This document shows, piece after piece, positions 29,962-48,354 of a DNA stretch of 64,000 nucleotides. This DNA is from an uncultured Carboxylicivirga sp. (GTDB lineage Bacteria; Bacteroidota; Bacteroidia; Bacteroidales; Marinilabiliaceae), in contig CANNEA010000005.1 of the NCBI GenBank assembly GCA_947503525.1, positions 62,001 through 126,000 on the forward strand, read 5' to 3'. Made by a program: the position numbers and the translations under genes. Within the stretch, counting starts at the first letter, position 1. Each line of letters begins with the position of its first letter. The notes below the pieces were generated by a model. It was not told the origin of the DNA. It worked only from the letters and a program-made list of their open reading frames with translations, and searched no databases.

Positions 29962-30046
29962 AGTATTGATGTTATAGGTTTAATAAATCCTCTATTTTCA
30001 TTTTTAGAGTATTACGATACTCTGTTTATTGTTCCTTGCTCTTATT

Positions 30047-30871: not shown

Positions 30872-30876
30872 TCCAT

Positions 30877-31206
30877 TTAATTTTTAAAACTGAGTGTTAT
30901 AAGACTATAGTTTTTGTCAGTAATCTCAATTGAAACTACTTGTCCATTTTTCGGATTAAAAAACTCTGTAATTTTGATAGGCGAATTGACAACATGTGTA
31001 AATTCAACTCCCTTATGCCCAAGAGCAATTGTTAGAGCATCTCCTTTATCTACAGGATCCAATACGAAATGCTGCAATGGCAGTTCATTGGCCAAAATGC
31101 CCTCATCCTTAACCTCCAGAGTTATTATTTCTCCTCTGTGACCGTTAATAAATGAATCGATATATTCAATCCAACTTTCTGATTTTATGTTTTTATTTTC
31201 TACCAT
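30877..31206 (-). CDS. DUF5335-like protein
   Basis: This is a 109-residue cytosolic protein. The opening SESWIEYIDSFINGHRGEIITLEV resembles the DUF5335 family (W-x-x-Y-hydrophobic...HRG), and the remainder is beta-rich. The family is small and uncharacterised and appears near HdeD-like and other stress proteins. It is inside the operon, with 5 nt to the next gene. No catalytic motif was seen. Confidence 0.55.
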   Translation of the reverse strand: MVENKNIKSESWIEYIDSFINGHRGEIITLEVKDEGILANELPLQHFVLDPVDKGDALTIALGHKGVEFTHVVNSPIKITEFFNPKNGQVVSIEITDKNYSLITLSFKN

Positions 31207-31249
31207 GATGTACTTGTTTTAATAGTTAATTTGCACAATGCCGAAATTT

Positions 31250-32119
31250 TCATTTTACGACTTCAATAATTAAAAAATCAGATTTATCCCAAAATGCGAG
31301 AGCGTCTAGTATCTTTAAGCTTTCAATTGTTTTATCACCTGTTAAGCTATAACTAGATTGAGGATGTGTTGTAAGAAGTTTAGCTTTTTTACATGCAAGA
31401 TTAATTTCTTCTGTTTCATCAATGGGTATTTCAATAAACCAACCTTCATCAGCATCTGCAGCCAGACTTTTCACTCTTCCCATTCCCAGAAAACCGCCTT
31501 CAGCATTTATGATGCCAAATTCTTTCAACTCTTTTTTAGTTGCAGCAATAACAAAGGCAGTATTTAACGCGCCATACAAAGCATCCGTTAAGATTGCTTG
31601 TTCTTCATAAGCTTCACTTAATAAGGCAATATTAATACCCTCTTCTACAACTTCAGAATTTAAAGCATCAATTACTTCATCCCGTTCAATAATTGCATCA
31701 GCAGCTTCGTCCAGCTCAATTTCAAGAGCGAGTATGACTTCTTCATCTAAATCTTCATTCGCATAGAGCTCATCGATATTTTGTTGCATTTTACTAAGCT
31801 TATGCTTGGTATTAGTCATGGAGCCATGAATATGCTCTAAATGCAATTGAATATCTTCTTCAACAGTTTCTGCATCGCCAGTAATTTGTTTTTTTACCAT
31901 ACTGTGTTTATCATCAATAGCAGCAAGGTTCTCATCAATTTCAGTTAACATTTCCTGATAAACCTCAATTGTGAGTGCCATTTCGATATCATCCGCAGCC
32001 AGCATTGCATTCTCTTCAGCAAGGGCTGCCAATTGGGCCTTCAATTCAGCATTTTCGTTTTTAGTGGAGCAACCAATAAATAAGGTTGTTAATAGTATTA
32101 TCGACAATAGATTTTTCAT
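31250..32119 (-). CDS. Coiled-coil lipoprotein
   Basis: This is a 289-residue lipoprotein with lipobox FIGCS at about residue 17. Residues 20-170 are acidic and strongly heptad-like (AELKAQLAALAEENAML, EDIQLHLEHIHGSM, EVILALEIELDEAADAI), predicting a long coiled coil. The C-terminal part is a small globular domain (IPIDETEEINLACKKAKLLTTHPQSSY). No family was recognised. It could be a periplasmic spacer or stress protein. It is an internal operon gene. Confidence 0.65.
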   Translation of the reverse strand: MKNLLSIILLTTLFIGCSTKNENAELKAQLAALAEENAMLAADDIEMALTIEVYQEMLTEIDENLAAIDDKHSMVKKQITGDAETVEEDIQLHLEHIHGSMTNTKHKLSKMQQNIDELYANEDLDEEVILALEIELDEAADAIIERDEVIDALNSEVVEEGINIALLSEAYEEQAILTDALYGALNTAFVIAATKKELKEFGIINAEGGFLGMGRVKSLAADADEGWFIEIPIDETEEINLACKKAKLLTTHPQSSYSLTGDKTIESLKILDALAFWDKSDFLIIEVVK

Positions 32120-32172
32120 GATTATAGTTTATTATTTATCCATTATTATATCTGCACATTTCTTTCAGCGGA

Positions 32173-32760
32173 TTATTTTTTAGTTTCTTTCTTCACACTT
32201 CCTTTTACCTTGAAAGAGATTATGAAAAGAGTTATACCCCCGATAAGGGCAACAATCCCAATTAGTTTTATAATAGTAAGGGCAGAGATAAAAGGAGATG
32301 TTAGCAATATAATTCCGAAGAAAATCGAGATAATTCCACCTAGAATCATTGACCATTCGTTTTTTATTTCTTTTCGCAGGCGTAATCCAGTAATAATTCC
32401 AAGAATACCATTTATAAAAGCTGAAATGCCAAGAAACCATACTAAAAAGGATGAAGTTAGAATTGCACTTAGAGCTGGTTGAGAGAGTACAATAACACCA
32501 GCAACAGCTCCCAAAAAGCCTGTAAAAATCCCCAACCCCCAGGATTTCACTTTTTTTCGTCCTTTTATTGATTTTACTATCGTGAAAATTCCATCAACCA
32601 GCCACCACGCTCCCATAATAATGAGCACAACTGTAAGTGTGGCTAGTGGGAATGCAAGTAATATAATTCCGATAATTAAGAGACTAATACCTCGGAGCAG
32701 GATTAACCTCCAAAGTTCACTTAGCACTTGATTTTGTGTCGATTCGTTTTTCTCTTTCAT
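32173..32760 (-). CDS. HdeD-family (DUF308) membrane protein
   Basis: This is a 195-residue inner-membrane protein with six hydrophobic helices in three repeated pairs, typical of DUF308/HdeD. Recurring segments are LLIIGIILLAFPLATLTVVL, WWLVDGIFTIV and FFGIILLTSPFISAL. In E. coli HdeD is linked to acid resistance. Whether the same holds here is unknown. It is an internal gene of the operon. Confidence 0.8.
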   Translation of the reverse strand: MKEKNESTQNQVLSELWRLILLRGISLLIIGIILLAFPLATLTVVLIIMGAWWLVDGIFTIVKSIKGRKKVKSWGLGIFTGFLGAVAGVIVLSQPALSAILTSSFLVWFLGISAFINGILGIITGLRLRKEIKNEWSMILGGIISIFFGIILLTSPFISALTIIKLIGIVALIGGITLFIISFKVKGSVKKETKK

Positions 32761-32803
32761 GGTAAAATAGTTTAAGTTTTATAAAATTTATCTATAAATG
32801 AGT

Positions 32804-34117
32804 TTATATTGCATACCTCAATCTGATTGTTGAGAATACTCCTACTATATCTTTTGATTCATTAAAGGATGGATTTATGGTTAATTGTAAATCAGGCATA
32901 ATATTTAAATGCTCCGTAAGTTGAATCCCATAATAAAATTCCATTCCATATTGATCTCTATGTCTTCTATCACTTGGTCCACCCCAACTGAGACCAATAC
33001 CCAGGTTATCACCACGATAGATATTTACATCAGCACCCAACATTACTAAATGGTGCATAAGAGCAGCGTTTCCTTCAGAAATACCGGTTCTAAAAAATGG
33101 AGTTATTCCAGAGAAATCGTAAGATGCGGAGAAACACCACCCTTGGCTTTTTTCTATTCCTTTGTCTTTTCTGGCATCTTGGTTCCAATAGCTAAGGTGT
33201 ATGGTTTGGCCACTAATAAGTGACTTACTTGGACTCCAACCGAACTCTATCCAATAGAAGTATTCTTGTTGATTAAAAAAAGATTTAAAATTTTCTGCTA
33301 TAAAGTAGCTTGCTTCACCATTAGCATCATGTATCCCACCTGAAATATAAAAATAATCTGCAATGGTTATTTCTCCTGAAATACCAAAGCCTTGATTGGG
33401 TAAAGCCATCGCAGGATTATTAAAGAAAGCTTCATTTAAATAAAACTTATAGGCATTTAGCAATGGATAAAGGTCAACCCAATCTCCAACATCCATTATG
33501 CCCGCGACCAAGGCAAATTTATTACCGAAAAATTGTTTCCAATAAAAATTGGTTAATCCCCAACCAAAATCCTTAAAACTGGCAGTACTTAAGGCACTAC
33601 CTGCCTCATAACCCAATTGTCGTGGAAGTTGTGATGTGCCTATTTTATGCCTGTTTTCAACCTTTACAATTAGTGAACCATGTAATCCATTATTTGTATT
33701 AAAAGCTTCCCAAGAACCATAGAATCGGAATATTCCACTGCTTGCCCATTTATCAGAGTAACTAAAAGATGCCATTTGATTTAAAAGCATGTAATCAGTG
33801 CCCACAGCAATTCTCGTTTTATCTTTTAGTTTTCTTTTAAAACCATAGTATTTATTAAATAAACGTTTAGATACATCAACATCTAGCCAGCTCATTTTTA
33901 ATCCATCATCTAATATCAAATCAGCACCAACGGAGTTAACCCCACCTACTGAACTTATTTTATCGTAACCTGATTTGCTTTCACCAAGTTTTAAAGTGTC
34001 CAATAATGAAGCTCCTGAAGGAATGGTATCTTGAGAGAAAGTTGCCCCTCCAACTAATAACATTATGAATATCAAACAATACTCCTTCACTCTATATGAA
34101 TATCTGCCTTTTTGCAT
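32804..34117 (-). CDS. Carbohydrate-porin-like outer-membrane protein (OprB family)
   Basis: This is a 437-residue exported barrel protein (signal peptide to about residue 29, ending ATFSQ). It follows the OprB pattern: GIFRFYGSWEAF, GSLIVKVENRHKIGTSQLP, GWGLTNFYWKQ, and a C-terminal DQYGMEFYYGIQLTEHLNIMPDLQ with SKDIVGVFSTIRLRYAI. OprB porins pass sugars across the outer membrane. It is a paralogue of the next gene upstream. The pair is in the operator-controlled operon and may import the sulfatase product. Confidence 0.82.
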   Translation of the reverse strand: MQKGRYSYRVKEYCLIFIMLLVGGATFSQDTIPSGASLLDTLKLGESKSGYDKISSVGGVNSVGADLILDDGLKMSWLDVDVSKRLFNKYYGFKRKLKDKTRIAVGTDYMLLNQMASFSYSDKWASSGIFRFYGSWEAFNTNNGLHGSLIVKVENRHKIGTSQLPRQLGYEAGSALSTASFKDFGWGLTNFYWKQFFGNKFALVAGIMDVGDWVDLYPLLNAYKFYLNEAFFNNPAMALPNQGFGISGEITIADYFYISGGIHDANGEASYFIAENFKSFFNQQEYFYWIEFGWSPSKSLISGQTIHLSYWNQDARKDKGIEKSQGWCFSASYDFSGITPFFRTGISEGNAALMHHLVMLGADVNIYRGDNLGIGLSWGGPSDRRHRDQYGMEFYYGIQLTEHLNIMPDLQLTINPSFNESKDIVGVFSTIRLRYAI

Positions 34118-34175
34118 TTGTTGATCACTCTAATGTTTAGTCAAATATTTTATTCTTGACATTTTAAATTATTAT

Positions 34176-35414
34176 TTAAAAACTCACTCTTCCTCTTAAA
34201 CCGAATAGAGCTATGATATCTTTTGAAGGATTCATAGCAGGATTTATTAGCAATTGTATATCTGGTGTTATCGTAAGGATTCTTGCAACATGCATGCGAT
34301 AGTATAACTCCACAGTATATTGATCTCTTAAACCTTCGCCAAATGTTGATTCTGAAGGCTTACCCCAACTTGCACCCAGGCTTAATTGGTTGTTATTATC
34401 CGGAAAATGATAGCCAAGTCCTAAATCGAGAGAATTCTCGAGCATAGCACCACCTTTATCGGCATAACCAGCTCTGATAAATGGCTCCCAATAATTGCTG
34501 ATAATTTTGCTTAACGACAATGCCAATCCCCAACCTTCTGGAATACCTGCAGCTTTTCTTTTAGCAGCATGCCAGTATGAAATATGCGCATTGTCGGTAA
34601 ATCGCTTGGCATAATCGCCTATCAGGCCTGCTTCCACATGTGTAAAATATTCAGCATCACCAAAAAAACTGTCGAAACTACCCATAGGATTAGTTGGATC
34701 GCCATTTGCATCCTCTAATCCAGCCAGAATGTATATGTTTTCGGTAACCAGTCCTCGAATTGCAAAACCTAAACCTTGATTAGGAACTGGTATGTGTGCC
34801 CCAGTTGAAAATGTTAAGTTAGAAACATCATTCCAAGGGTCTGCCAAGCCATAAATATTAAAGAAATCTGTTGCATCAAGAATACCGACTACAAAAGCCA
34901 ACCTGTTGTTTAAAAGTTGTTGTTGCCAGTAAAAATTAGTCATTCCCCATCCCATATTGCTAAAGGTGATTGATGTAAGTCCTGCATATCCAATCTCAGA
35001 ACCAAGTGACTGGGGAACTATATAATTACCATATTTGTGTCTGTTTTCTACTTTAAAAATTAGGGAACCTTTATTACTATTTTTTTTACCTACCAAATCC
35101 CATGAACCAAAAACTCTAAACACACCGCTAAATCCTGACTTCTCGCCAAGACTTTCTGATACTGTCTGATAGTTTGAAAAATAATCGATTCCATAAGAAA
35201 AACCACTTTCTTCTTTTAGGGCATTTTTGAAATCGAAATAAGATTGCAGAAAATCAGTTTTATGAGAGGCATCGCGATCTATTTGGCCATCTACACTGCT
35301 TGGGCCACCAAAACCAGGATTTGATTTCAGTGTGTCGAGTAGATGCTCGGACTGAGCACATAGTGAACCTGGTCCGAGTAAAAGTAGACAAGCAATTAAT
35401 AAAAGCTGATTCAT
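34176..35414 (-). CDS. Carbohydrate-porin-like outer-membrane protein (OprB family), paralogue
   Basis: This is a 412-residue exported barrel (signal peptide ending SLCAQ at about residue 21) with the same landmarks as its neighbour: GVFRVFGSWDLV, GSLIFKVENRHKYGNYIVP, GWGMTNFYWQQ, LRDQYTVELYYRMHVARIL, and a C-terminal SKDIIALFGLRGRVSF with terminal Phe. The two genes are tandem duplicates that have diverged, perhaps towards different substrates. A large inverted repeat (35463-35523) lies in the 123-nt gap upstream. Confidence 0.82.
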   Translation of the reverse strand: MNQLLLIACLLLLGPGSLCAQSEHLLDTLKSNPGFGGPSSVDGQIDRDASHKTDFLQSYFDFKNALKEESGFSYGIDYFSNYQTVSESLGEKSGFSGVFRVFGSWDLVGKKNSNKGSLIFKVENRHKYGNYIVPQSLGSEIGYAGLTSITFSNMGWGMTNFYWQQQLLNNRLAFVVGILDATDFFNIYGLADPWNDVSNLTFSTGAHIPVPNQGLGFAIRGLVTENIYILAGLEDANGDPTNPMGSFDSFFGDAEYFTHVEAGLIGDYAKRFTDNAHISYWHAAKRKAAGIPEGWGLALSLSKIISNYWEPFIRAGYADKGGAMLENSLDLGLGYHFPDNNNQLSLGASWGKPSESTFGEGLRDQYTVELYYRMHVARILTITPDIQLLINPAMNPSKDIIALFGLRGRVSF

Positions 35415-35523: not shown

Positions 35524-35537
35524 CATAGTGTATATTA

Positions 35538-37175
35538 TTAATGATTATCATGTTTAGCTGGACAGAAATCGATGGAATGCATTTTTATCCATTGTTTCTG
35601 TGTAGCTGGCACAAAGCGTCCTTTTTCTTCCTCGGGGTAGCGAATAGCCTGGCCTTTAAAGACATCCTGCACCTTTGAATCTTTTACCACAATATTTCCA
35701 CCCACAATTACATAAGGAATACCTGTAGTAGGATTTCCCTGATTCCCTGCTTTATAGGTAGCATTATCGGTTACTTTTTCAGCATCGAAAATGGTAATAT
35801 CGGCAACCATTCCTTTTTGAATGCGTCCACGAACTTTCATGGCTTCAATACCTGCGTCGCCCAAGTGCTTGGCGCTCCAGTAGCTAATCTGACAAAGTGT
35901 AAACATTAACGGAATGTCTTGTTCGCGTGCCAAACGCAATACTTTTCCTCTCGAGGCAGCTGTACGTGGATGACCGGCATATTCGCTAAAATCAGCATCC
36001 CAGGGCAATAGTTCACCGTCAGAACCTGCTCCAAAGGTATTATCGCCTCCAACAACCATGTGTGGCATGTTCATCCAAAATGGCAACCATTTTTTGCGCG
36101 GAGGAACATGGGCAATCACCAACCGGCCCGGATCTTCTTTGACAATTTTAAGGAATTCTTCTTCATTTAAAAACTTATCCTGGGTAGGGTCGTACATGGT
36201 TTCTTCGTACTGGTAGCCATTAATATCTTTCCAAGTTGCAGGCTGCAAAAAGCCTGAACCAATAGCAGTAGAACCTGCTGCATAGGGATAATACTCTGCC
36301 CACATATTTAAGCCCATTTTACGAGCCATTTGTAGTTTTTCCTCGTGCTCCCACCAGCCATAATCGTTATCGTGACCGATAATTAATGGAGCTTTTAATA
36401 AAAAGGCATTGGTAAAAACCTCATCAAAACCTAAAGCGGCTTCGGTGGGTGTTTTTGTGCTGCTGTGGAAACGGGTATGTGCAAGCGTTAAACGGCCATA
36501 ACGAGCAGCTGCACGTTGTGCCTCAAATTGCTCATATGTGGTTACACCATTGCGCATATAACCTACGGTTGAACCTAAACCCAAAGCTCCTTGACGGAGA
36601 TTCTCGTCGATAATCTGTGTGATCTTATTCATGTGCTCCAAATCACTGGGTGTATCGGCCCAACCATCCACGCCATCTTTGGCAGCCACGCCCCTAAGTC
36701 GAGGCATATCGGTAGCATCAACCGGTTTGTCAATAACAGTCCCATCGTGCACCACATTTCTTGCAAATTCTTGCGAAACAGATACCCCATAGTTAATGGG
36801 CCATTTACCTTCTTTTTCTTGATACCAGGCTCCTACATTTAAAGCACCAATTTCTAAATCAAGGCCGGTAGTTAAACCATCGCGCAATCCCATTTTGGCT
36901 GCAAACAAATCCATGCTATGGTCATGCGAATCGATAAATCCGGGTGCTACCACGAGCCCGGTTGCATCAATGGATTCTTTACCTTTAATCTCATCTTTCG
37001 TTATGATTATAATCTTTCCATCTTTAATGCCCACATTTCGTACCGCATCAAACATTGTTTCCGGATCCATTACCCGACCATTCAGAATAACCAGATCATA
37101 TTCTTGTGCTTGAGCATATAGAGCCCCCATTAAAAAGAGTGCTATTCCGAATAGAAGATGTTTAGTGATTTTCAT
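35538..37175 (-). CDS. Secreted amidohydrolase, N-acyl-D-amino-acid deacylase type
   Basis: This is a 545-residue metal-dependent amidohydrolase with a signal peptide (to about residue 23, ending LYAQAQ). It shows the dihydroorotase/D-aminoacylase features: LVILNGRVMDPET, the metal motif APGFIDSHDHSMD at about residue 82, LTLAHTRFHS, LIIGHDNDYG, and a C-terminal composite-domain return (GMVADITIFDAEKVTDNATY). Substrates in this family are N-acyl-D-amino acids or cyclic amides. The substrate here is unknown, but a secreted amidohydrolase beside a sulfatase suggests a sulfated, N-acylated compound. It is the second gene of the operon. Confidence 0.85.
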   Translation of the reverse strand: MKITKHLLFGIALFLMGALYAQAQEYDLVILNGRVMDPETMFDAVRNVGIKDGKIIIITKDEIKGKESIDATGLVVAPGFIDSHDHSMDLFAAKMGLRDGLTTGLDLEIGALNVGAWYQEKEGKWPINYGVSVSQEFARNVVHDGTVIDKPVDATDMPRLRGVAAKDGVDGWADTPSDLEHMNKITQIIDENLRQGALGLGSTVGYMRNGVTTYEQFEAQRAAARYGRLTLAHTRFHSSTKTPTEAALGFDEVFTNAFLLKAPLIIGHDNDYGWWEHEEKLQMARKMGLNMWAEYYPYAAGSTAIGSGFLQPATWKDINGYQYEETMYDPTQDKFLNEEEFLKIVKEDPGRLVIAHVPPRKKWLPFWMNMPHMVVGGDNTFGAGSDGELLPWDADFSEYAGHPRTAASRGKVLRLAREQDIPLMFTLCQISYWSAKHLGDAGIEAMKVRGRIQKGMVADITIFDAEKVTDNATYKAGNQGNPTTGIPYVIVGGNIVVKDSKVQDVFKGQAIRYPEEEKGRFVPATQKQWIKMHSIDFCPAKHDNH

Positions 37176-37206
37176 AGCTTAGTGTTTTTTAATATTAGTT
37201 TGTAGA

Positions 37207-37470
37207 TTATTTATCGTCATTAGCTGCACAGATACACTTCACCGAAATAACAGGCAAGTGTAGTTCATATAGGGTGTTGAGTATTCCGGATAAAGCTGCC
37301 TGATCTGCGATAAGCCCGGTAAGTGTTGACATGAACTGATTATCTGAAATTTGCTCGGTTTCTATATCCAGCCCACCAAGTGAATCGGACCAGGATGTAT
37401 CAAGTTTGCCCTGAACCCGAATTTTATAAGTGGCCTTGCCGCCGAATTTTATATTCTTACATTTTTCCAT
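37207..37470 (-). CDS. Small conserved-type protein, first gene of the sulfatase operon
   Basis: This is an 87-residue protein with the pattern ATYKIRVQGKLDTSWSDSLGGL, then LTGLIADQAALSGILNTLYELHLPVISVK. I recognise this as a small uncharacterised family found in several phyla (I-R-V-x-G-x-L-D...W-S...L-T-G...D-Q-A-A-L-x-G-I/L). No catalytic residues are evident, and a ligand-binding or regulatory role is possible. The start lies just downstream of operator-promoter site 1, and the amidohydrolase follows by 31 nt. Confidence 0.65.
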   Translation of the reverse strand: MEKCKNIKFGGKATYKIRVQGKLDTSWSDSLGGLDIETEQISDNQFMSTLTGLIADQAALSGILNTLYELHLPVISVKCICAANDDK

Positions 37471-37490
37471 GTTGTTCCATTTTATACCAT

Positions 37491-37549
37491 CAAATTTACG
37501 GAGTAAGAGGTGGAAGAGTCAATTCCACTTTAGTGGAAGAAAAGTGGAA
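37491..37549 (-). promoter_or_regulatory. Regulon site 1: promoter with dyad operator
   Basis: On the minus strand the order is: half-site TTCCACT, 4 nt, the dyad TTCCACTAAAGTGGAA (37523-37538), then TTGACT directly abutting (-33), then TAAATTTG (37491-37498) with 21 nt between TTG and the -7 box. The extra half-site (37543-37549) is spaced 11 bp, one helical turn, from the dyad. The layout places an activator right against the -33 element. The same arrangement recurs at 39601 and 44417. It drives the ten-gene operon. Confidence 0.8.
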
Positions 37550-37645
37550 AAGCCTTGGCAAATCATAGTTTTAGGGTCTGACAAATTCAAAATCAAGCTT
37601 CTGCTGGGGGAATAATTCTATGCAGTTTTGAAGCGAATAAAAATC

Positions 37646-37684
37646 ATAATTCAGAAATATCCCACCACGGATTTCCTGAATTAT
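37646..37684 (-). terminator. Terminator of the barrel/PCMD operon
   Basis: Arms ATAATTCAG and CTGAATTAT (9 bp, extended by AAAT/ATTT across one bulge) enclose a loop. On the minus strand the hairpin is followed by GATTTTTATT. It lies 45 nt past the PCMD stop and separates that unit from the promoter at 37491. Confidence 0.7.
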
Positions 37685-37728
37685 AATTTTGATCTAAATT
37701 CTTTGAAAATATAGAATTTGAAATTGCG

Positions 37729-38799
37729 TTAATAGATAAGCTCTACATCATCAACTATTAAAACACTACCGATGGCACCAGCAAAATTAGCCCCATCGTA
37801 ACTTGAAGATGCAACAAAGGTAATATGAGTTGGTAGCATAAAGCTTGCTGAGTCGGAACTTACAAACTGACCATTCTCAGGGAACATATAGTCGGGCATA
37901 GAGGGATCTAACTCGCCATAGTAAAAATCTAATTCCTTTTCGGATAAAGATTCTTGAATATCACCATCCCTAAACCAAGCTGCGGCTAATCGTTCTGTAT
38001 TGTCAGCAGTTCTAATTTCCAAAATGGCATAAATGTCAAACATATCCGGCTCTGACAATAAATCTCCATTTTTGTCCTTATTTTCCGCTCCCGGAATATA
38101 GGAATAGCTAAATTTTATTTTTTGAGGTCGGCTCGCAAAGGGAATACCAAAATTGATAGCTGCCTCGGGGTCGATAGGATCAATTTTATCTTTATCGAAC
38201 AAACCTGTAAAAACCGATCCTGCTGATATTGGTGTTCCAAAAGTGGCGGCCAATTTACCATTATCTAAAGTCTCCATTTTTACAGCAAGGTTATTGTCCT
38301 CTAACTCAATAGGAGTTGTTGCCAATAAATTCAAAATTTGAGTGCCAGCGTTGCCAGTCCCCCAAATTGTTGTTGAAGCATCTTCACCAGGTTCATAAAA
38401 ACCACCATTGGTTTCGTACCAGGTATTAAAATCGGAATATGCAAGCTGCGGAGTTGATGAAGCAGCTGATGCTTTTATTGTCCATGTAGTAATTTGTCCA
38501 TTTTCTGCTGTTACTTTTATGCTTACATCAGCAGTAAAATCGAGTTCATCACCAATATTTTTATCTGCAGTAGCAAACGATGATAATGTAAGTGTTTTTA
38601 AAGTTAGGTTTGTAACATCAACTCCAGCGGGAATTTCTACTGAAACTTCATACGTTTCGTTATTTATAACGGCCTGACTTGCCTGATTGCTAATTTCGAA
38701 TGATTTAATATTGCCATATTGAGATAAGCCAAAATAATCGTCGCTTATACAAGAAGCTAAAGCTATTGTTAATATAGAGAGAAATATTATATTTTTCAT
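37729..38799 (-). CDS. PCMD-domain lipoprotein
   Basis: This is a 356-residue lipoprotein with lipobox ALASC at about residue 16. Residues 25-115 form a beta-sandwich with strand motifs typical of SusE-like or DUF5018-type N-terminal domains (IKSFEISNQ, YEVSVEIPAGVDVTNL, TWTIKAS). From about 118 it is the putative carbohydrate metabolism domain (PCMD): LAYSDFNTWYE, STTIWGTGNAGT, RPQKIKFSYSYIPG. Such proteins are thought to bind or process glycans at the cell surface. It is the second gene of the unit driven by site 2. Confidence 0.82.
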   Translation of the reverse strand: MKNIIFLSILTIALASCISDDYFGLSQYGNIKSFEISNQASQAVINNETYEVSVEIPAGVDVTNLTLKTLTLSSFATADKNIGDELDFTADVSIKVTAENGQITTWTIKASAASSTPQLAYSDFNTWYETNGGFYEPGEDASTTIWGTGNAGTQILNLLATTPIELEDNNLAVKMETLDNGKLAATFGTPISAGSVFTGLFDKDKIDPIDPEAAINFGIPFASRPQKIKFSYSYIPGAENKDKNGDLLSEPDMFDIYAILEIRTADNTERLAAAWFRDGDIQESLSEKELDFYYGELDPSMPDYMFPENGQFVSSDSASFMLPTHITFVASSSYDGANFAGAIGSVLIVDDVELIY

Positions 38800-38804
38800 A
38801 ATTT

Positions 38805-39575
38805 TTAGTTTTTATTACCTGTACCAAAATAATATGCAAGACCTAACTCAAGAGACAAAATGTCGATGCTAAAATTTACATTTTGCCTAATATCTTGAGA
38901 TTGTTCAACACCATCGATAGTTGTCTCAGTTACTTTTAAATCATAGCCTAGTACATTTAATTGCACTTCGAAAGCAAAATTTTCCATGGCAAAAAATGTG
39001 ATACCAGGACTAATTCCTAATCCAAAATTGTAAGTAGTTGATAGCGTTTTAGAGATTTCATCAACATGCATTATACTGCGGGAATTTGAGTTTTCGATGC
39101 CAAAACCCAGTCCAACCATTGTAAAAAAACTTAGCCTTTCGTTTGCTGTTAAAGGTACTGAAGTACGAAGGTTAGGAGTAAAACTAAAACCGCGTGTTAA
39201 GGAGTTAGACTGAATAGTATCTGGATCGCGGAAAAGAAATCTTTCATATTTACTCTGATAGTAATTTACATTTAGCCCGACCATACCATAATCGCCCGTA
39301 TAATAACCTCCTTTAAATAAGAGATTGTAACTTAAATCATCTCCATCCAATGTTTTTTGCAGAAGCCCTTGGGTATTTTCACTTTGCTTGTCGGTTAATG
39401 AAAATGCTAAACCAACGTACCAGTTTCCTTTTTCAAAAGGTTTGAAATCGTTTTCGTAGTAACTGGAAAGTAAATCGTAAGGTGAGTACTTTAATAAAGT
39501 ATCCTGATTGCTTTGTGCTTGCACTTTAATAAGCATTATAGTGCAAAGCATTATAAATAGAAGTTTTTTACACAT
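38805..39575 (-). CDS. Outer-membrane beta-barrel protein
   Basis: This is a 256-residue protein. The ATG at 39575 starts a standard signal peptide (MCKKLLFIMLCTIMLIKVQAQ) and leaves about 19 nt of leader behind the promoter at 39601. The earlier ATGs would leave almost none. The mature part has amphipathic strands (NWYVGLAFSLTD, GMVGLNVNYYQSKY, SLELGLAYYFGTG). It is 5 nt before the PCMD lipoprotein gene. This barrel plus lipoprotein pair resembles an outer-membrane uptake or binding unit. Confidence 0.7.
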   Translation of the reverse strand: MCKKLLFIMLCTIMLIKVQAQSNQDTLLKYSPYDLLSSYYENDFKPFEKGNWYVGLAFSLTDKQSENTQGLLQKTLDGDDLSYNLLFKGGYYTGDYGMVGLNVNYYQSKYERFLFRDPDTIQSNSLTRGFSFTPNLRTSVPLTANERLSFFTMVGLGFGIENSNSRSIMHVDEISKTLSTTYNFGLGISPGITFFAMENFAFEVQLNVLGYDLKVTETTIDGVEQSQDIRQNVNFSIDILSLELGLAYYFGTGNKN

Positions 39576-39600
39576 ATCAACCATTATCATATTTTCTAAA

Positions 39601-39659
39601 CAAATTTAGTTTAGAAAGCATGTTTTAGTCAATTCCACTTTAGTGGAAGAATGGTGGAA
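39601..39659 (-). promoter_or_regulatory. Regulon site 2: promoter with dyad operator
   Basis: The architecture is identical to site 1. The dyad TTCCACTTTAGTGGAA is at 39633-39648 and the third half-site GGTGGAA at 39653-39659. The TTG of TTGACT is complementary to 39630-39632, and the -7 box TAAATTTG is complementary to 39601-39608 after a 21-nt spacer. The spacer shares ATGCTTTCTAAAC with site 3, suggesting copying of the whole promoter. Confidence 0.8.
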
Positions 39660-39715
39660 AATAAGTTGCAATAAAAACAAGCGAGGAATATGCGAATTAA
39701 AGCAAAATAGGCCAA

Positions 39716-42407
39716 TTAGGATATTTCTAGCTCCTTTACTTTTTCAATCAGTTGAATTCTATTCTTTACACCTAGCTTTTGATAGGTATTATATAGATGT
39801 TTTTTAATGGTATCTTCTGAAACATGTAACTTCAAGGCTATTTCTTTGTTACGCATACCTTCTGCAACTAAATATATAATTTCATTTTCGCGCTGAGTGA
39901 ATATATCTTTATCAATTGATTGATTAGTAATCTCAGTTCTATTTGTTTTAATTGAAGAAATCTTCAATTCCTTTTTAAATGCTTCAATAATATCACTTAC
40001 ATAAGCATTAGAATCAACAGCCCCGAGATAGGCGTTTAACAAGTCAAGCATTGGTTTGCCAAGATCAATATAATTTCGAATTGCACCGCCTTGAGCTGCA
40101 TAATGTATCGATTCGGATAACTTTTCTGTTGCACTAATCCTGTCACCTTGAGCATCAAGCACCAAAGCATACAACGCCAAGAAGTCAGTTAGAATTCTTT
40201 TTCGGTTGTTTTTCATTAAATACTCTACCGTAGGATTAAGCAAATCGATAGCTTCTTCCAGGCTTTTCCTAGTATTTTTATGCAAGAGGATTCTTACCTG
40301 TGTAAATTTGGGCACATAATAAAACCACATTGGCGGTTGTAAATCATCCTTATACTGCTCATCCAAAGCAGTGATCGCATTAACGTTTCCTTGAATGAGG
40401 TTTAATTCTATTTGTATTGATTCAATTAAGGCATGTATTGACTCCTTGTTTGTTTCAGCTTTAAGTGCTATTAAAGAATTAATTACATCAGAGGCTTTTT
40501 TGTCATCCCTATGCTTTATGTATATTAAGGCTAATAAATAACCCGCCTGAACGAGATAGTCCAATCTAGAAAATTGACGGTCATTTACCAAGGCTTTCAG
40601 ATAAGGCTCAGCTTCGTCAAGCTCATTTAAAACATAATGTGCAGCCCCCATAAAATACCTGCCAACAGATATAGATTCTACCAGTTTAAATTCCTCTCCA
40701 ATTCGAATGCATTCAAGCGCTGATCTTTTAAGCTTGTGCATATCGCCTTCCATTTTATAAGCCATACAACACCACACTTTGAACCTAGCCTGTAATATTC
40801 CATTTGGCAATTTTTGCTTATCTATTAAATCGTTAATAATATCAACACCAACATCAATTTTATTCATCATTTGGTAGGAAAGAGCTATTAAAGCATGCGC
40901 ATAAGATTTTGCATGGCAAGCATCTTCTAGCAGTAATTTAATCGCTTCTTCTGCATTCTTAAGAGCACCATTTGAGTTTCCTTCCAGTAGTTGTATTATA
41001 CCATCTAAAACCTTTAATTCACCACTAAGAGAATTCCCTAGTATCGATTTTTCTTGCTGTGTTTCAAGCAGAAGTTTTGCCTTGTTCTTGTTTAACACAA
41101 TACCTGTGTAATCTCCACTTGTATCAGAAATATAGGCAGATATGGTCAATAATAAAGGATTGTTTTCGATGATAGAATCAGGGAACATTTCCACTAATTT
41201 ATGCAGACGATTCCACTGTCCTGAATTCATAAGTTCATAGCGATGCTTTTCAATAACTGTTAATGCGAACGGAACATCTTCGGCCAATAAAGCATGTTTT
41301 ACAGACTCCTTGTAAAGATTATTATTATTGAACCAGATACTAAAACTTCTATGTGTTTCTGTAATTTCCTTTTTACTAAAAGCACTGTTTAGTTGCTTTT
41401 GTAACAATTGTTGGAATAAATGATGGTAGCGAACCCAATTATTTTGGTTGTCTAATGCAATAATAAATAGATTCGAGTCGATTAATTGATTAAAAGCTTC
41501 ACTTCTTTGCTGATTATTAATTGTATCAATAGTATCTAAAAGTTCGGGGCAAAATCTATCTAACAATGAGGAGAATAGTAATATGCTTTGTAGTTCTTTA
41601 GATTGTCTTGAAAGCACTTCCTGAATTAAAAATTCAGAAATCATAGTATTTGAATTTTTGGAAGAATCAATAAGTTTCAATAAATCTTGATTACTATTAA
41701 CAGAAAACGCTGATAATCGTAGACCAACGACCCAACCTTCTGTTAGCTCGATAAGTTTAGAAATAATTTCATGTGTGGGTTCTGAACCTAGTTGATTCTT
41801 ACACAAAAGACCTGCTTCCACTTCATCAAAAACCAAATCGCTAATTCTAATTTCGGTACTACGGTTATAGAATTTTAGATGGCTCAGCCTTAATGAAGGA
41901 TCTCGGCGAGCGATAATAACCAAATGCATATTTTGTGGAGGGTAATCTAATATAGCATTGATTAATTCATGAATTTCTTTATTGTGGATTAAGTGGTAAT
42001 CATCCAGAGCGAGAATAAATGCATTATCTATACTATCTAATTCATTAATTAATGAATTAGATAGTTTTAATAGGGGGAAGTTCAGCTGATTTTAGAAAAC
42101 CAGCTATTTTATTAAAACTATTATCTTTAAGATTAGATAAGCCTGTTGTTAAATAGGCCAAAAAAGTATATAGATCGTTCTGTTCCTCATCAAGTGATAT
42201 CCAGCAGCTCTTTAAATTGTTTTTATCAATCCACTGACTAATAAGGATACTTTTACCATACCCCGCAGGGGCTGAAACTAATGTAAAAGGCTTTTGTCTG
42301 TTTTTTTCAAGATATTCTATTAGTTTGGCTCGAATTACCAAATCGTGAGTAATAGGTGGTCTATGAAGTTTGGTTCGAAGTACTTGGCTCCTATGGGACA
42401 TATGCAA
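39716..42407 (-). pseudogene. MalT-like LuxR-family regulator, frameshifted
   Basis: This is a near-full-length copy of the regulator at 45012-47732, split by a frameshift. The first part (116 codons, to 42057) carries LRTKLHRPPITHDLVIR and the Walker A APAGYGKS. It stops after LPPIKTI. The other frame resumes at once with SLINELDSIDNAFILALDDYH (Walker B) and runs to a LuxR helix-turn-helix (FTQRENEIIYLVAEGMRNKE). Aligned to the intact copy, the break fits a 2-nt deletion near 42055-42060 (equivalent to +1). No residues other than the junction are lost, so the damage looks recent. A sequencing error or programmed shift is possible but less likely. Confidence 0.85.
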
Positions 42408-42564
42408 GATGAATTTAGCCCCATAAAGTTAAGACGTTTTTTTTAAAGATTTAAAAATATCTTGTTACAATCTATGGAAAAAGGGCTTTGGTATTAGCTT
42501 GTTTCAAGACTCTATTTACACCTTAATAACTATTTTGAATGTTCTTGACCAATCTTTCTTAAAG

Positions 42565-42598
42565 AAAACTCCACCCCAATCCAAAGGGGTGGAGTTTT
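42565..42598 (-). terminator. Terminator after the DUF1254 gene
   Basis: This is a 13-bp stem (AAAACTCCACCCC / GGGGTGGAGTTTT) with an 8-nt loop, 14 nt past the DUF1254 stop. It is flanked by A and T runs, so it can work in both directions. It insulates the DUF1254 unit from the broken regulator gene. Confidence 0.85.
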
Positions 42599-42612
42599 TT
42601 ATTTTAAACTCA

Positions 42613-44172
42613 TTAATCAACGATTTCTATTTCACCAGGTCTCCAGGTTTTGTCAATCCATGGCTGCAATGGTCCATACATTCTTAAAATGATAAACCAA
42701 CTTTTTCCCGGAACAGTTTCCAGCCAATTGTTCTCTTTGCCTACAGGGGCTTTCGGTCCAAAATAAACATCATAAGATCCGTCTTCGTTTTGCTCGAAAC
42801 CTTCTGACTGACTACCAACTGTTGGGAAGGGCTGGCTCGTCTGCAACATCGACCTAGTCTGGCTGTCGTAAATTGTCACTGCCCAAAAATTATTGACCGG
42901 GACATCTTTTGGAAGCTGCAGCTTGTAGGTTTTCGCTCCATCCAAGTATTGCTTCTTGGCATCGACATAGGCAATTCCATAATCGGAACCAAGGCCTGCT
43001 CTAGAAACCGCCATGGCCGGAGTTACAGCAGTATAAGCATAATGAAACATGGTGCGGGCATCCAAATTGCGGGCTCCATCCACATCAAAGAATACATCCT
43101 TTCCTGCATAAGCCATAACCCAGGCGCTTTGTTTGCCGTAAATATAAGCCTGTTCTTCACGAGGATACCAGTCAATGGCTCGTGCCGTTGCATTACCTAT
43201 AGCAACAGCTTCTTCAAGAATTTTTTTCATTCGCTGGTCCGGATTAAATGGTTGCCCCTTAACAATACCAATGGCAGCACATTCTCCACGACGTTCGGGG
43301 CTGAGCGATTCGAGTGGTTCCCTTTGTATAAGCTGGTTCAGTTGTTCAAAATAACTGAAATCGTTGGGGAATATGGTGTTAAATGTTTTGCCTGAGCCAG
43401 AGATAAACTCCATGGCTGGTGGATTATCTTTGCTGGCAAGCGGATAAACCTTGAGATTATCTTTGATATTTTTTGCCCCAGCTTCGATTCCATTAGCAAT
43501 GGAACCTCGCAAGAAAACCCACATTCCATAGGTTCTGGAATGTACCACAAAATAACCCGCTGGAACTTTCCCTTCGTATTCTGGAGGCAGAACCAGGTAC
43601 TTACCGCCCTTACCCTTGTCAGGGCCAGCAGGACCCACATCACCAGCATAGCGGAACCATGCATCATTAAATGCTCCTAGTAGGCCGGGAGGGATTTCCA
43701 CAACCGTTGGCCCATCCTTTTCCAGGTCGAGGACAGGAAAAGCATACATGGTGGAGGTATTTGCTGTGAGAAAAAGAGATTCGGAACTCATCAGCTTATC
43801 GAAAATCACCACCTGATTGGATTTTGTCTGTCCCAGACTTCTAGGACCATCGAGTAATCCATACAAAGAAACTCCGGGCAAGCAATTCAGAAATACTTCT
43901 ACGCCCCGCATCAGATCCAGGTTGTCATATACCTTATTTACAGTTGCTTCTGTTGGCACACCATCAAAGAATTCCAGCTTACCGATGGATGTTTCCACCT
44001 GATCTGGTGTAGTAATCTCTACTGGAATATTGCTTGCAGTCTGTTCTACCTTGGGTTGTGCATCTGAACTAGCTGTTTCCGGTCCGGATGCCTCTTTAGT
44101 TCCCTGATTCTGACAGCTTATCATGGCAATCAGAATAGTAATCCATGTTAAAACATTGCGTTTTCTCATCAT
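42613..44172 (-). CDS. DUF1254/DUF1214 lipoprotein
   Basis: This is a 519-residue lipoprotein. The ATG at 44172 (or 44169) starts a lipoprotein signal with lipobox AMISC. The DUF1254 domain is clear (GVEVFLNCLPGVSLYGLL, TANTSTMYAFPVLDL, GKYLVLPPEYEGKVPAGYFVV). The C-terminal DUF1214 domain has NFWAVTIYDSQTRSMLQT and PGKSWFIILRMYGPLQPWIDKTW. These two-domain proteins are widespread and uncharacterised, and often neighbour AtsA-like sulfatases. Here the gene has the same operator-promoter as the sulfatase operon, which ties the two by regulation. The 5' leader is long (about 240 nt). Confidence 0.88.
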   Translation of the reverse strand: MMRKRNVLTWITILIAMISCQNQGTKEASGPETASSDAQPKVEQTASNIPVEITTPDQVETSIGKLEFFDGVPTEATVNKVYDNLDLMRGVEVFLNCLPGVSLYGLLDGPRSLGQTKSNQVVIFDKLMSSESLFLTANTSTMYAFPVLDLEKDGPTVVEIPPGLLGAFNDAWFRYAGDVGPAGPDKGKGGKYLVLPPEYEGKVPAGYFVVHSRTYGMWVFLRGSIANGIEAGAKNIKDNLKVYPLASKDNPPAMEFISGSGKTFNTIFPNDFSYFEQLNQLIQREPLESLSPERRGECAAIGIVKGQPFNPDQRMKKILEEAVAIGNATARAIDWYPREEQAYIYGKQSAWVMAYAGKDVFFDVDGARNLDARTMFHYAYTAVTPAMAVSRAGLGSDYGIAYVDAKKQYLDGAKTYKLQLPKDVPVNNFWAVTIYDSQTRSMLQTSQPFPTVGSQSEGFEQNEDGSYDVYFGPKAPVGKENNWLETVPGKSWFIILRMYGPLQPWIDKTWRPGEIEIVD

Positions 44173-44566
44173 GTCGTTTGTTTTTTTGAGTTCATTAATT
44201 ATGATGTTCATATTTAGTCTCTTAGCGTCAAGTGATTTCTATTTATTATAGTCATTCCCTACCCGTATATAGGGATTCAGAGTGGCTAGTTACCAGCCAC
44301 ACTTTTCGATTTCTGTCAGATTTGATCGTTTACCAAGCATATGCAGAATTACCTGATTATTTAGGTATTCTTCGATACAAACATTAGCAGTTCAATCTCT
44401 ATCATATTTCATTTAATAAAAGTAGTTTAGAAAGCATATTATAGTCAATTACACTTTAGTGGAAGAAAAGTGGAAAATAAGCTATAAGGGAAAGTAAATT
44501 TGAAAGAGTTCAGGAGTTTTTAGGTAAATTTATGATAGGGATGTTTTCATTATAACGAGTTTAGAA
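44173..44566. other. Divergent intergenic region with long DUF1254 leader
   Basis: This gap contains regulon site 3 at 44417-44475. From the predicted start site near 44410 to the DUF1254 ATG the mRNA leader is about 240 nt, with no convincing small gene. The right part must hold the promoter of the plus-strand gene at 44567. Confidence 0.55.
44417..44475 (-). promoter_or_regulatory. Regulon site 3: promoter with dyad operator
   Basis: The dyad has one mismatch (TTACACTTTAGTGGAA, 44449-44464), and the third half-site AGTGGAA is at 44469-44475. TTGACT abuts the dyad, and TACTTTTA (a weaker -7 box) follows after the same 21-nt spacer. The orientation, like sites 1 and 2, points to the minus strand and so to the DUF1254 gene. 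Confidence 0.75.
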
Positions 44567-45019
44567 ATGGATATTCAAAAAGTAGCATCATATCAAATTA
44601 TACCTGATAAAAGATTAATAATTGAATTTTTATCAGGTAATATTATATTGGAGGATTTAATTAACCTAAAACTTAGGTTGGTTGAAGAAAAAGACTATAA
44701 TCCAATCTATAATCATATTCTTGACTTTCGAGAAGCAAACGTAAGCTTAAGTGGAAATAATATCGACTCATATATATCTTTTATTGAGAATCATGAAAAG
44801 ATATTAGCTACAAGAAGAAGTGCTATTCTCACGTTAACCCCAGCCCAAGTTGCAATAACAACACTCTATATTGAAAAAGGGAGGCATTTGCCTGTAAATT
44901 GGAACATATTCTCTACAATTGAAGCTGCACTGGACTGGGCTCAACAAAATCAGTTAAAGGAAGAGGGGTATGAAGAAATACTCAGTCAGATTCGATTAAA
45001 TAATAGTCTAGCTAGTTAG
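44567..45019 (+). CDS. Hypothetical protein
   Basis: This is a 150-residue soluble protein without signal peptide. Alternating strands and helices (IIPDKRLIIEFLSGNIILEDLINLKLRLVEEKDYNPIYNHILDFREAN is the first half in outline), with TLTPAQVAITTLYIEKG and STIEAALDWAQQ later, recall STAS-like or SpoIIAA-like single-domain proteins. The family was not recognised with certainty. It lies between the DUF1254 gene and the intact MalT-like regulator and overlaps the end of the latter by 8 nt tail to tail. It may be a partner of the regulator. Confidence 0.6.
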   Translation: MDIQKVASYQIIPDKRLIIEFLSGNIILEDLINLKLRLVEEKDYNPIYNHILDFREANVSLSGNNIDSYISFIENHEKILATRRSAILTLTPAQVAITTLYIEKGRHLPVNWNIFSTIEAALDWAQQNQLKEEGYEEILSQIRLNNSLAS

Positions 45020-47732
45020 TACCCAAGATATCAAGTGCTTTTGCTTTCTCGATTAATTGTAAACGATTTGTAACTTCTAATTTCTGGAAGGTATTGTAAA
45101 GGTGCTTTTTGATAGTATCTTCGCTTACAAAAAGTTTTGCAGCTATTTCTTTATTTCTTAAACCTTGTGCTACCAAGTTAAGTACCTCCATTTCACGAGA
45201 AGAAAGCTTTTCTGGCATCACAGATTCACTTAAAGAAACTATTTTTTTAACCGATTCATTTTTTAATATATCCTGTTGGCAGCTATCCCAGTTATCTATT
45301 GCATTTAAAATTATATTAATGTGCTCCCTGTTTTCATTGGTCTCTGGTAATCCGGCAATCAGCCCTTTTATTTCAACGCCATAATCAACATAGGTGCGGA
45401 TGTTGTTACCCATACTACTAATTGATAAAGCTTCTGTAATTTTTAAGACAGCCTCTTTATCTTTTGTCTGTGCTTTTAAAGCGAGAGCTTGCAGGATGAG
45501 CACATCAGTTAATATCTTATTCTTATTGGTTTGCCGCAAAGGTTCTTCAATTTCACTTAAGAGTTGAAGTGCCTCTGAAACACTTTCTGTTGTATTTATA
45601 GCCAATTTTAATTTTACAGGGGTTAAATGAGAAACATAATAAAACCAAATGGGCGGATAGAGTACATAAGTATCCTGCTGCTTATCCAGCAGTAGTGCTT
45701 TTTCAAGATTTTTCTCTTTTAAAGCAAGTTCAACCTGCATGGCTTTTGCTTCGGTATTGACTAGGGAATCTTTGGAATTATCAGTGTGGTTGATTATGAA
45801 TTCCATTAATTGATCAGCTTTTTCGACTTCACCCCTTTCGATGTAAATTGAGGAAAGTAAAAAAGCAGAGTTAACAAGAAAACTAGGGCGGGCAATAAAA
45901 GGATCTTCAACTATAGATTTTAGGTAGGGCTCTGCCTTATCATCTTCCATTAATAAATAATGAGCGACACTCTTAAAATATTTACCATAAACAATTGATT
46001 CAGGCACCATATTTTTTTCACTAAGCTCGATAGACTTATGTGCATGTTTTTTTAAGCTTGCTGTATCACCCTGCATGGCATATGCAATTGAATACCAACC
46101 ATGAATTCTTGCTGCGAAGAAATCGGAATTCTGCGTATTTTCTATTGAGATATTTGCCAAGCCTTCAATATTGTTGACCAATTGATGGCTAACAATCTGA
46201 GTTCCCCATACATAAGAAAGGGCATAAGTGGCAGTGGGCGGCAATAATTCGAGCGCCCTCCCGGTGCATTCCAGGGCACTTTTTCCATCACCTGAAAGCA
46301 AGTATAGTTCTCCTTCAATTGCTTCTAATTCACCTCTAATATCATTAATCTCTGGTGATTCGATGGATATCTTACTTAATAGGGCTTTTGCTTTTTCTTT
46401 AAACCCGATCCAGTCAGCTAATTGACCACGGTATTCCATGATTAAGGATTTGGCAGTCAAAAGTCCCGGAGTTACATCAATTATGCCTGGAGGCAACAGA
46501 TCTATTAAATTGTTTAAACGATGAATCTGCCCCGTTTCCATCATTTCATATTTATAACTGTTTACTAAGTGAACGGCCAAATCAGTTTTTTGCCCCTTAA
46601 GGGCATGTTTAACGGCTGCTTCTTTAAAGTCATTTTTATCAAACCATTCAGAAACTTTTAAATGATAAGCATTCATCTCATCAACACTCAGTTGTTTCTT
46701 CAATTGTTTAAGAAGCATCTCACGAAAAAGGTGATGGAACCGATACCATTTCCCTTTAAAATCCAATGAGATTGTGAAGAGGTTAGCATTAAGGAGGATT
46801 TGAATCACATCTTCTCCGCTTATATCAGCATCCTGATTTTTAACATGAGAAAAACATAGTTCATTCACCAATTCATCGCAAAACTGATCAGGGATAGCTA
46901 TTTTAAGAATACAATCCCTGATGGATTCCGGCTGATTTAAGATTACTTCTTCCAGCAAAAAATTAGTGGTTGTAGGATTAAAAGCTTGAATTTTTTCAAG
47001 GGATACATTTAAGTCTTCATCTTTTTTTACCATTAATAATAGCAGTCGCAAACCGGTAATCCATCCTTCCGTTTGTTGCATCAATTTCTGCGAAATTTCT
47101 ACACTTGATTCTGTTTGAACAATATTCTTCAACAATTCCAAAATTTCACTTTCACTAAAGCACAGTTCTGACATACGAATCTCATTGATACGATTATACG
47201 CCCTCAGATGAGTAAGTTTCAATGGTGGATCTCTACGGGTTATAATTACGAGGTGTAGGTTTTGAGGAGGAAATTGCAAATAAGTATTTACAAAATCATG
47301 TATTTCAGAATTGTTTATTTTATGGTAATCATCCAAGACCAAAATGAAATCATCTGAAATATCATCTATTTCATTGATAAAGGTATGAGCAAGGATCTTT
47401 ACAGGTGGCAAATCAGCAGCCTCAATCATTGAACTGAATTCTTTGAGCTTTTCAGGTGCTGCGCTACTCATAGAGTAAGCCAGGTATTGAAGAAAAACGG
47501 GTAAACTATTGTTCTCTTCATCCAATGAAATCCAAGCATGTTCAAATTTCATATCCTCAACCCATTGACTAATAGTTATGCTTTTCCCATAACCTGCAGG
47601 TGCAGCGACTAATGTAAAAGGTTTCTGTCTGTTTTTCTCAAGATATTCTATCAGTCCGGTCCGAATTACTATATCGTTAGTAACTGGTGGCCGATGAAGT
47701 TTAGTGCGAAGAATTTGGGTTGAATTAGACAT
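45012..47732 (-). CDS. MalT-like LuxR-family transcriptional activator (STAND ATPase)
   Basis: This is a 906-residue signal-transducing ATPase of the MalT class. The N-terminus carries LRTKLHRPPVTNDIVIR, Walker A APAGYGKS at about residue 40 and Walker B FILVLDDYH. A winged-helix and TPR-like superhelical sensor region fills the middle. The C-terminal 65 residues are a LuxR helix-turn-helix (LSSREMEVLNLVAQGLRNKEIAAKLFVSEDTIKKHL). In MalT, inducer and ATP binding drive assembly on repeated boxes. The ATG at 47732 is preferred to a TTG 6 nt upstream. It is the probable activator of the three dyad-operator promoters, by inference from proximity. Confidence 0.9.
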   Translation of the reverse strand: MSNSTQILRTKLHRPPVTNDIVIRTGLIEYLEKNRQKPFTLVAAPAGYGKSITISQWVEDMKFEHAWISLDEENNSLPVFLQYLAYSMSSAAPEKLKEFSSMIEAADLPPVKILAHTFINEIDDISDDFILVLDDYHKINNSEIHDFVNTYLQFPPQNLHLVIITRRDPPLKLTHLRAYNRINEIRMSELCFSESEILELLKNIVQTESSVEISQKLMQQTEGWITGLRLLLLMVKKDEDLNVSLEKIQAFNPTTTNFLLEEVILNQPESIRDCILKIAIPDQFCDELVNELCFSHVKNQDADISGEDVIQILLNANLFTISLDFKGKWYRFHHLFREMLLKQLKKQLSVDEMNAYHLKVSEWFDKNDFKEAAVKHALKGQKTDLAVHLVNSYKYEMMETGQIHRLNNLIDLLPPGIIDVTPGLLTAKSLIMEYRGQLADWIGFKEKAKALLSKISIESPEINDIRGELEAIEGELYLLSGDGKSALECTGRALELLPPTATYALSYVWGTQIVSHQLVNNIEGLANISIENTQNSDFFAARIHGWYSIAYAMQGDTASLKKHAHKSIELSEKNMVPESIVYGKYFKSVAHYLLMEDDKAEPYLKSIVEDPFIARPSFLVNSAFLLSSIYIERGEVEKADQLMEFIINHTDNSKDSLVNTEAKAMQVELALKEKNLEKALLLDKQQDTYVLYPPIWFYYVSHLTPVKLKLAINTTESVSEALQLLSEIEEPLRQTNKNKILTDVLILQALALKAQTKDKEAVLKITEALSISSMGNNIRTYVDYGVEIKGLIAGLPETNENREHINIILNAIDNWDSCQQDILKNESVKKIVSLSESVMPEKLSSREMEVLNLVAQGLRNKEIAAKLFVSEDTIKKHLYNTFQKLEVTNRLQLIEKAKALDILGTN

Positions 47733-47834
47733 AATCAAATGTATATGTAAAAAAACTCTCTTTTTAATATTTTTTGTGTGATCCCTTTATTATAATTCTT
47801 TAACAATGGACTCTAATGCTTCTTTCAGATCAGG

Positions 47835-48321: not shown

Positions 48322-48329
48322 ACTCATTA

Positions 48330-48354
48330 GTTCGAATCCCTCTCTCTCCGCTGA
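48330..48354 (+). repeat. attR of island 1 / attL of island 2 (tRNA-Ser 3' fragment)
   Basis: This is an exact copy of 16320-16344 containing only the T-arm and acceptor 3' strand of tRNA-Ser, with no tRNA body upstream. It closes island 1. Because a second integrase lies just downstream in the same layout as the first, it also acts as the left end of a second island. Confidence 0.88.

Follow-up and report, generated by a model that had tools for sequence, protein, structure and literature searches.

The window analysed here is a stretch of 64,000 nucleotides (nt) from an uncultured Carboxylicivirga sp. (GenBank assembly GCA_947503525.1, contig CANNEA010000005.1, positions 62,001 to 126,000). 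It carries three near-identical elements, each joining a candidate operator to a putative promoter, that lie among the genes of two MalT-like regulators on an island bounded by a tRNA-Ser gene. The features on which the argument turns are the following.

37491..37549, minus strand: site 1, putative operator-promoter with a direct half-site, a 7-2-7 dyad at 37523-37538, TTGACT and TAAATTTG, before the small-protein and amidohydrolase genes
39601..39659, minus strand: site 2, putative operator-promoter with the outer half-site TTCCACC, a dyad at 39633-39648 and TAAATTTG, before the genes for an outer-membrane protein and a PCMD protein and just 3' of R2
44417..44475, minus strand: site 3, putative operator-promoter with a dyad at 44449-44464 (one mismatch) and TACTTTTA, before the DUF1254/DUF1214 gene and 3' of R1
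45012..47738, minus strand: R1, intact MalT-like STAND/LuxR regulator of 906-908 amino acids (aa) depending on the start codon, with a GerE helix-turn-helix (HTH) and a TPR_MalT domain
39716..42407, minus strand: R2, second MalT-like regulator, frame-broken, in two frames (listed open reading frames (ORFs) 42057-42407 and 39716-41929)

The minus-strand consensus of the three sites is TTCCACN5TTCCACTAAAGTGKAATTGACT-N18-TANNTTTR, in which an outer TTCCAC half-site is followed 11 base pairs (bp) on by the dyad TTCCACT-WW-AGTGGAA, then by TTGACT and finally by a TANNTTT box. All three lie where the original prediction placed them and share one orientation, reading leftward with their promoters on the minus strand, and the predicted 21 nt from TTG to the -7 box are found at every one of them. 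They had been called identical; the repeats are real, but they are only near-identical, since the dyad of site 3 is one base off and site 2 has TTCCACC as its outer half-site with an altered spacer. Over 67 nt, identity to site 2 is 88% for site 3 and 69% for site 1. The third half-site, said to lie 11 bp from the dyad, is present, but the 11 bp are the start-to-start distance of the direct half-sites (7 plus a gap of 4) and not a gap from the dyad. The dyad has the 7-2-7 geometry of NarL sites, exact at sites 1 and 2 and with one mismatch at site 3.

The promoter part had been read against the Bacteroidota consensus, described for sigmaABfr as TAnnTTTG at -7 with TTTG near -33 (PMC7366714). 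This reading is exact for the -7 box of sites 1 and 2, while site 3 is a weaker match; the -33 element is ATTG at all three sites, as opposed to the consensus TTTG. An intrinsic terminator or RNA element was considered and rejected, as the dyad lies upstream of the -33 region with no T run after it, and positions 35000-50000 gave no Rfam match at gathering thresholds.

Both of the MalT-like regulators that had been predicted are present, R1 as an intact gene but R2 split over two frames. R1 matches GerE (1.2e-19) and TPR_MalT (6.9e-13) in Pfam, and the C-terminal part of R2 does the same (2.5e-17 and 2.6e-20). The translated R1 and the translated N-terminal part of R2 both contain APAGYGKS, a candidate P-loop, with no NOD Pfam match at 1e-3; no receiver domain is found among the Pfam matches of either protein. 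The HTH of R1 matches NarL and other LuxR-type structures. In the organism's own genome (6,556,515 bases, 6.56 Mb) R1 and R2 are the only MalT-like regulators, and both lie within the island among the sites; the other four genome matches are short C-terminal HTH matches (weak ones on C1, C3 and C9). A perfect 34-bp palindrome (window 42032-42065) stands at the frame break of R2, which may reflect a templated mutation or an assembly artefact. Frame breaks or stops occur in three of the regulators examined: R2, a Eudoraea regulator (L036:1043-3729) whose HTH is split off into an overlapping frame of its own, and that of L051 (L051:7999-10677), which carries one internal stop. Here and below, L numbers denote loci around MalT-like genes in other genomes, and G numbers denote genomes.

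The original prediction had seen no further copy in the window, and proposed a genome-wide scan in which copies scattered at random would have spoken against a regulon. The 30-base composite TTCCACN5TTCCACN4GTGNAATTG, allowing up to 3 mismatches, has exactly three matches in the whole genome, namely the three sites, and all of them sit in the island; read backwards at the same tolerance it has none in that genome. Within the window, the bare 16-mer dyad is unremarkable (3 seen versus 3.04 expected at up to 3 mismatches). The direct-repeat pair, by contrast with its expectation of 0.26, has 4 matches at up to 1 mismatch, a number reached in 0 of 100 shuffles, and three of the four are the sites. 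Further afield, the composite at up to 3 mismatches gives 25 matches outside the own genome among 71 genomes of the family (own genome included), all with 2 or 3 mismatches, and a strict direct-repeat pattern with TANNTTTG finds, among 395 genomes of the class, only sites 1 and 2 in the own genome and a single match elsewhere, in G378.

A second proposal had been to compare relatives for co-occurrence of motif and regulator. Loci came from the organism's own family, from a second family of its class and from the wider phylum, as stretches of up to 20 kilobases (kb) around each MalT-like gene and down to 5 kb at contig ends; in the class and phylum searches only two or three first-look candidates were scored per genome, so that relatives may be missed. 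The sole close relative from the scan of named genomes is on a Eudoraea contig of 4,225 bases (L036), where the regulator is 59% identical; TTCCACTTTTCTTCCACT lies about 180 nt 3' of the ORF with the HTH and is followed by TATCTTTA and by a small gene encoding a homologue of the 87-aa protein of the window (34% over 53 aa, expect value (E) 5e-10). Outside Eudoraea the MalT-like genes are 22-32% identical to R1 by pairwise BLAST. Even among relatives at only about 25-29%, a similar 7-2-7 dyad or 11-bp direct pair is found again 3' of the regulator, at a matching distance from a TANNTT box.

In 22 loci (405,855 bases, window included), dyads were sought that have the core ACTWWAGT between symmetric flanks, with a TANNTT box at a distance of 22-28 nt. 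Of the seven matches obtained, two are sites 1 and 2, and L050, L051, L058, L064 and L082 have one apiece. All five dyads outside the window lie 3' of a MalT-like regulator, 48, 88, 183, 194 and 1073 nt from its end, and if positions were uniformly distributed, all five would fall within 1,200 nt 3' of the regulator with a probability of about 2e-6. In 40 first-order shuffles the mean was 0.275 matches and no shuffle had more than 1; among the 64 possible core triplets ACT has the most matches (7), with CTT next at 4. Dropping the promoter condition brings the dyads to eight, the additional one (in L054) lying 5' of its regulator.

The co-occurrence itself was assessed for 26 regulator rows, each over the 800 nt on its 3' side, accepting an ACT-cored dyad (at least 5/7 pairs) or a direct pair (at least 6/7) with a TANNTT box 23-26 nt on from the element; the L064 site, at 1073 nt, is not counted here. 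A maximum-likelihood tree of 25 of the rows (L048/L049 and L052/L053 are near-copies, and L053 was left out) holds a clade of 11 with support 100/99, made up of R1, R2, L036, L048, L049, L050, L051, L058, L065, L079 and L082. The element is present in 10 of these 11 rows (R1 and R2 included) and in 0 of the 15 MalT-like rows outside the clade. Similar elements thus stand beside related regulators, and the link to the regulator, which the original prediction drew from proximity and family, therefore rests on more than proximity.

We consider it probable, judging from sequence comparison, that the three elements are the operator-promoters of a small island-borne regulon governed by a MalT-like STAND activator. 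Here we infer that the regulator binds the elements, that it activates rather than represses, that it answers to an inducer, and how far the operons extend. STAND activators are described as monomers with ADP bound that become ATP-bound multimers when they meet their inducer (PMC6468293). R1, and perhaps formerly R2 too, would rest as such a monomer; binding of inducer and ATP would lead to assembly, and the assembly would place several LuxR-type DNA-binding domains on the TTCCACT half-sites, arranged as a NarL-like 7-2-7 pair beside the -33 region with a third half-site one helical turn upstream. The assembled regulator may then recruit the Bacteroidota housekeeping RNA polymerase to the three promoters, leading to expression of the DUF1254/1214 protein, of the outer-membrane protein with the PCMD protein, and of the small protein with the amidohydrolase and porin genes. 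The operator would lie at about -44, which fits the NarL-activated napF site and the published MalT operators that overlap -35.

It is an evenly balanced matter whether a wider rule holds, namely that a Bacteroidota clade of MalT-like regulators has a common operator grammar, in which a 7-2-7 dyad, an 11-bp direct pair or both are used, the -7 box stands 24-26 nt beyond the end of the 12-bp dyad core, the outer half-site bases follow the recognition helix (KK-H/Y-L with CCACT or CAACT, KSHL with CGACT), and the first gene often encodes a small protein of about 87 aa, maybe a partner or feedback element of the regulator. Our hypothesis is that the recognition helix sets the half-site. A second clade with KSHL (L052, L064 and L081, support 100/99) has CGACT half-sites; L064 shows them clearly, L081 and L052 less clearly.

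A number of observations weigh against these proposals. The inverted arm is not kept in Eudoraea, so the direct pair can stand alone, and L036 and L048 both have a direct pair and no dyad; the outer direct half-site reaches only 1-4/7 in L050, L051, L058, L065, L079 and L082, so that no one arrangement holds for all members. L065 and L079, which were found without a symmetry condition, are only 5/7 symmetric, and L049, nearly identical to L048, fails the 800-nt test by one base. That test requires an ACT core and by design misses other types of operator. Both arms change in step in L082 (CAACT/AGTTG) and L064 (CGACT/AGTCG), which is suggestive only, as the scan itself asked for symmetry. Rows with the recognition helix KK-H/Y/S-L have the element in 9/10 cases versus 1/16 for the rest (Fisher 3e-5; 9/9 versus 1/15 with near-copies merged), figures that are descriptive because the split was made after looking, nearly equals one clade, and compares rows that are not independent. 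The phylum-level loci L101-L103 have no ACTWWAGT dyad with at least 5 symmetric pairs, and no element stands before R1 or R2 themselves.

Numbers of matches also have to be read with care. Enrichment by count alone was rejected, because relaxed patterns are as frequent or more frequent backwards than forwards: 6 forward versus 6 backward in the 71 family genomes, and 12 versus 57 (table count) in 148 genomes of a second family. Without enrichment over the backwards control, only position carries weight; forward matches adjoin MalT-like regulators in 4 of 6 cases in the family, two of them in the own genome, and in 2 of 12 in the second family. Around the remaining relaxed matches, the 1.5 kb read on either side contain no MalT-like gene. 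A generic scan of the other loci for 11-bp direct repeats did not rise above other offsets (2 matches at 11, 2 at 10). A further element, at L056:7590-7648, separates another MalT-like gene from the small-protein gene that goes with it; here TTTTTACACC is directly repeated at an 11-bp period ahead of TAAATTTG. Its layout is like that of the sites here, and its half-site is different.

The element could instead serve a repressor, or act both ways, given that the dyad directly adjoins the -33 region. In that position an operator could block the polymerase, and the LAL regulator SCO6993 is reported to be negative (PMC9628970). However, MalT is described as activating from sites that overlap -35 in E. 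coli and Actinoplanes (PMC7567727), and the imperfect -33 (ATTG for TTTG) would be as expected at activator-dependent promoters, so we regard repression, or control in both directions, as unlikely. One could also suppose that another LuxR/NarL-type protein, a response regulator, binds the sites and that the MalT-like neighbours are coincidental. The site geometry is indeed the NarL 7-2-7, and the genome has more proteins with a similar HTH (the weak C-terminal matches named above). Yet the sites are found only on the island holding the MalT-like genes and recur beside MalT-like regulators elsewhere, and the relaxed match that does lie beside a response regulator (L088) resembles a terminator hairpin with a T run; this makes such a binder decidedly improbable.

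Finally, the repeats might be functionless leftovers of a duplicated block of regulator plus promoter. R1 and R2 are paralogues that share a 182-nt stretch at 78% identity, and sites 2 and 3, both of which lie 3' of a regulator, have the 88% identity given above. Against this, site 1 is not beside a regulator and has kept the operator core while its flanks diverged (69%), R1 and R2 are only 37-39% identical, and clade relatives in other genera have similar elements next to them; we find this explanation scarcely credible.

The genes that an island-borne MalT-like regulon would comprise are listed below.

37207..37470, minus strand: 87-aa protein, first gene after site 1, with no Pfam/NCBIfam match and with homologues after MalT-like regulators in other genomes
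35538..37175, minus strand: amidohydrolase (PRK09061-type), in a putative operon with site 1
27607..35414, minus strand: closely spaced run of two OprB porins, DUF308, an unknown gene, DUF5335, a weak Phenol_MetA_deg match and a sulfatase
38805..39590, minus strand: outer-membrane beta-barrel protein behind site 2
37729..38799, minus strand: PCMD-domain protein behind site 2
42613..44211, minus strand: DUF1254/DUF1214 protein behind site 3

The genes of 27607..35414 would be co-transcribed from site 1. When the window proteins were compared with 21 loci by tblastn (E up to 1e-3), homologues of the small protein were found in six (L036, L056, L058, L080, L084 and L085) and of the amidohydrolase in nine (L050, L052, L053, L058, L065, L079, L081, L082 and L085), with fewer for the outer-membrane protein (5/21), the PCMD protein (4/21) and DUF1254 (1/21, L051). 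More small proteins stand right after regulators in L050, L052, L064, L079, L081 and L101, and near that of L103, although their assignment relies on size, position and a 12-row alignment (21-43% identity to the protein of the window), without a significant match. This recurrence of neighbours supports a functional set that travels together. The small proteins form a family of about 65-105 aa with no curated Pfam/NCBIfam match, found near MalT-like regulators even outside the class (L101 and L103; examples are L050:3064-3336 and L103:12789-13043). On the other side of site 3, starting 92 nt beyond it, lies a 150-aa plus-strand gene (window 44567-45019) whose stop overlaps the end of R1 and which has no significant Pfam/NCBIfam match.

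The island that carries these genes is defined by the following features.

16320..16344, plus strand: left 25-bp attachment repeat, at the 3' end of the tRNA-Ser at 16256-16341
48330..48354, plus strand: right 25-bp attachment repeat, giving an island of 32,010 bp
16579..17868, plus strand: tyrosine integrase of the island

The marks of a tRNA-integrated island are all present, that is, a direct repeat of the tRNA 3' end, an integrase, and an empty site in a relative; a MobC-like gene also lies inside. The empty site is in the sister-species genome G019 (L105), where the tRNA-Ser runs directly into a match of 48330-49810 (80% over 1,493 bp) with the 25 bp common to both, and where the left side matches 12558-13686 and is without most of 13.7-16.1 kb. 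The regulators, the sites and their genes probably arrived together, and such a joint arrival explains why the motif is confined to the island. A second integrase (48505-49812) lies just outside the right end, suggesting a tandem element, and a perfect 32-bp palindrome (window 48283-48314) ends 15 nt before the right attachment repeat.

To our knowledge, few DNA targets of MalT-like STAND activators are known, and our literature search found none in Bacteroidota. In the present case a likely target can be read from the sequence and traced across genera along with the regulator, so that the pairing of regulator and operator can be put to a direct test. This points to a portable set of promoters that moves with its own regulator, and offers a way into the unassigned DUF1254, PCMD and small-protein genes.

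Three known kinds of operator invite comparison. In E. coli and Klebsiella the regulator is of the same protein family and its boxes adjoin -35; the MalT box is given as GGGGA(T/G)GAGG (as cited in PMC7567727), which has 0 matches in the window at up to 1 mismatch. NarL sites are likewise two inverted heptamers 2 bp apart; the NarL-activated napF site is placed at -40 to -49, and an engineered 7-2-7 site, TACCCCTAAAGGGGTA, has an equal layout and a similar heptamer (PMC4549865). NarL, however, is a two-component response regulator, whereas the HTH here belongs to a MalT-like protein, and the sites have a third, direct half-site in addition. The operators of the SARP-LAL regulator PimR are described as direct repeats of heptamers with 4-bp spacers (PMC5930380), the same 11-bp period as the outer and inner half-sites here, but they are bound through the SARP domain and not a LuxR HTH, and their sequence is another one.

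A whole regulon for comparison is that of MalT in Actinoplanes sp. SE50/110, where a region likewise holds two MalT-like LuxR regulators, a palindrome overlaps -35, and many targets are poorly annotated. There the palindromic motif is reported to overlap the -35 of 17 start sites, with one MalT activating and spread by transfer suspected (PMC7567727). It differs in being actinobacterial, in its -10/-35 promoters, in having 17 sites versus the 3 found here, and in its motif, TCATCC-N5-GGATGA, which has two matches with 2 mismatches in the window, neither at the sites. The locus is thus best read as a local regulon of the MalT-like type, carried by a tRNA island and served by a composite operator of its own; systems of this kind are known, and the variant of operator is new.

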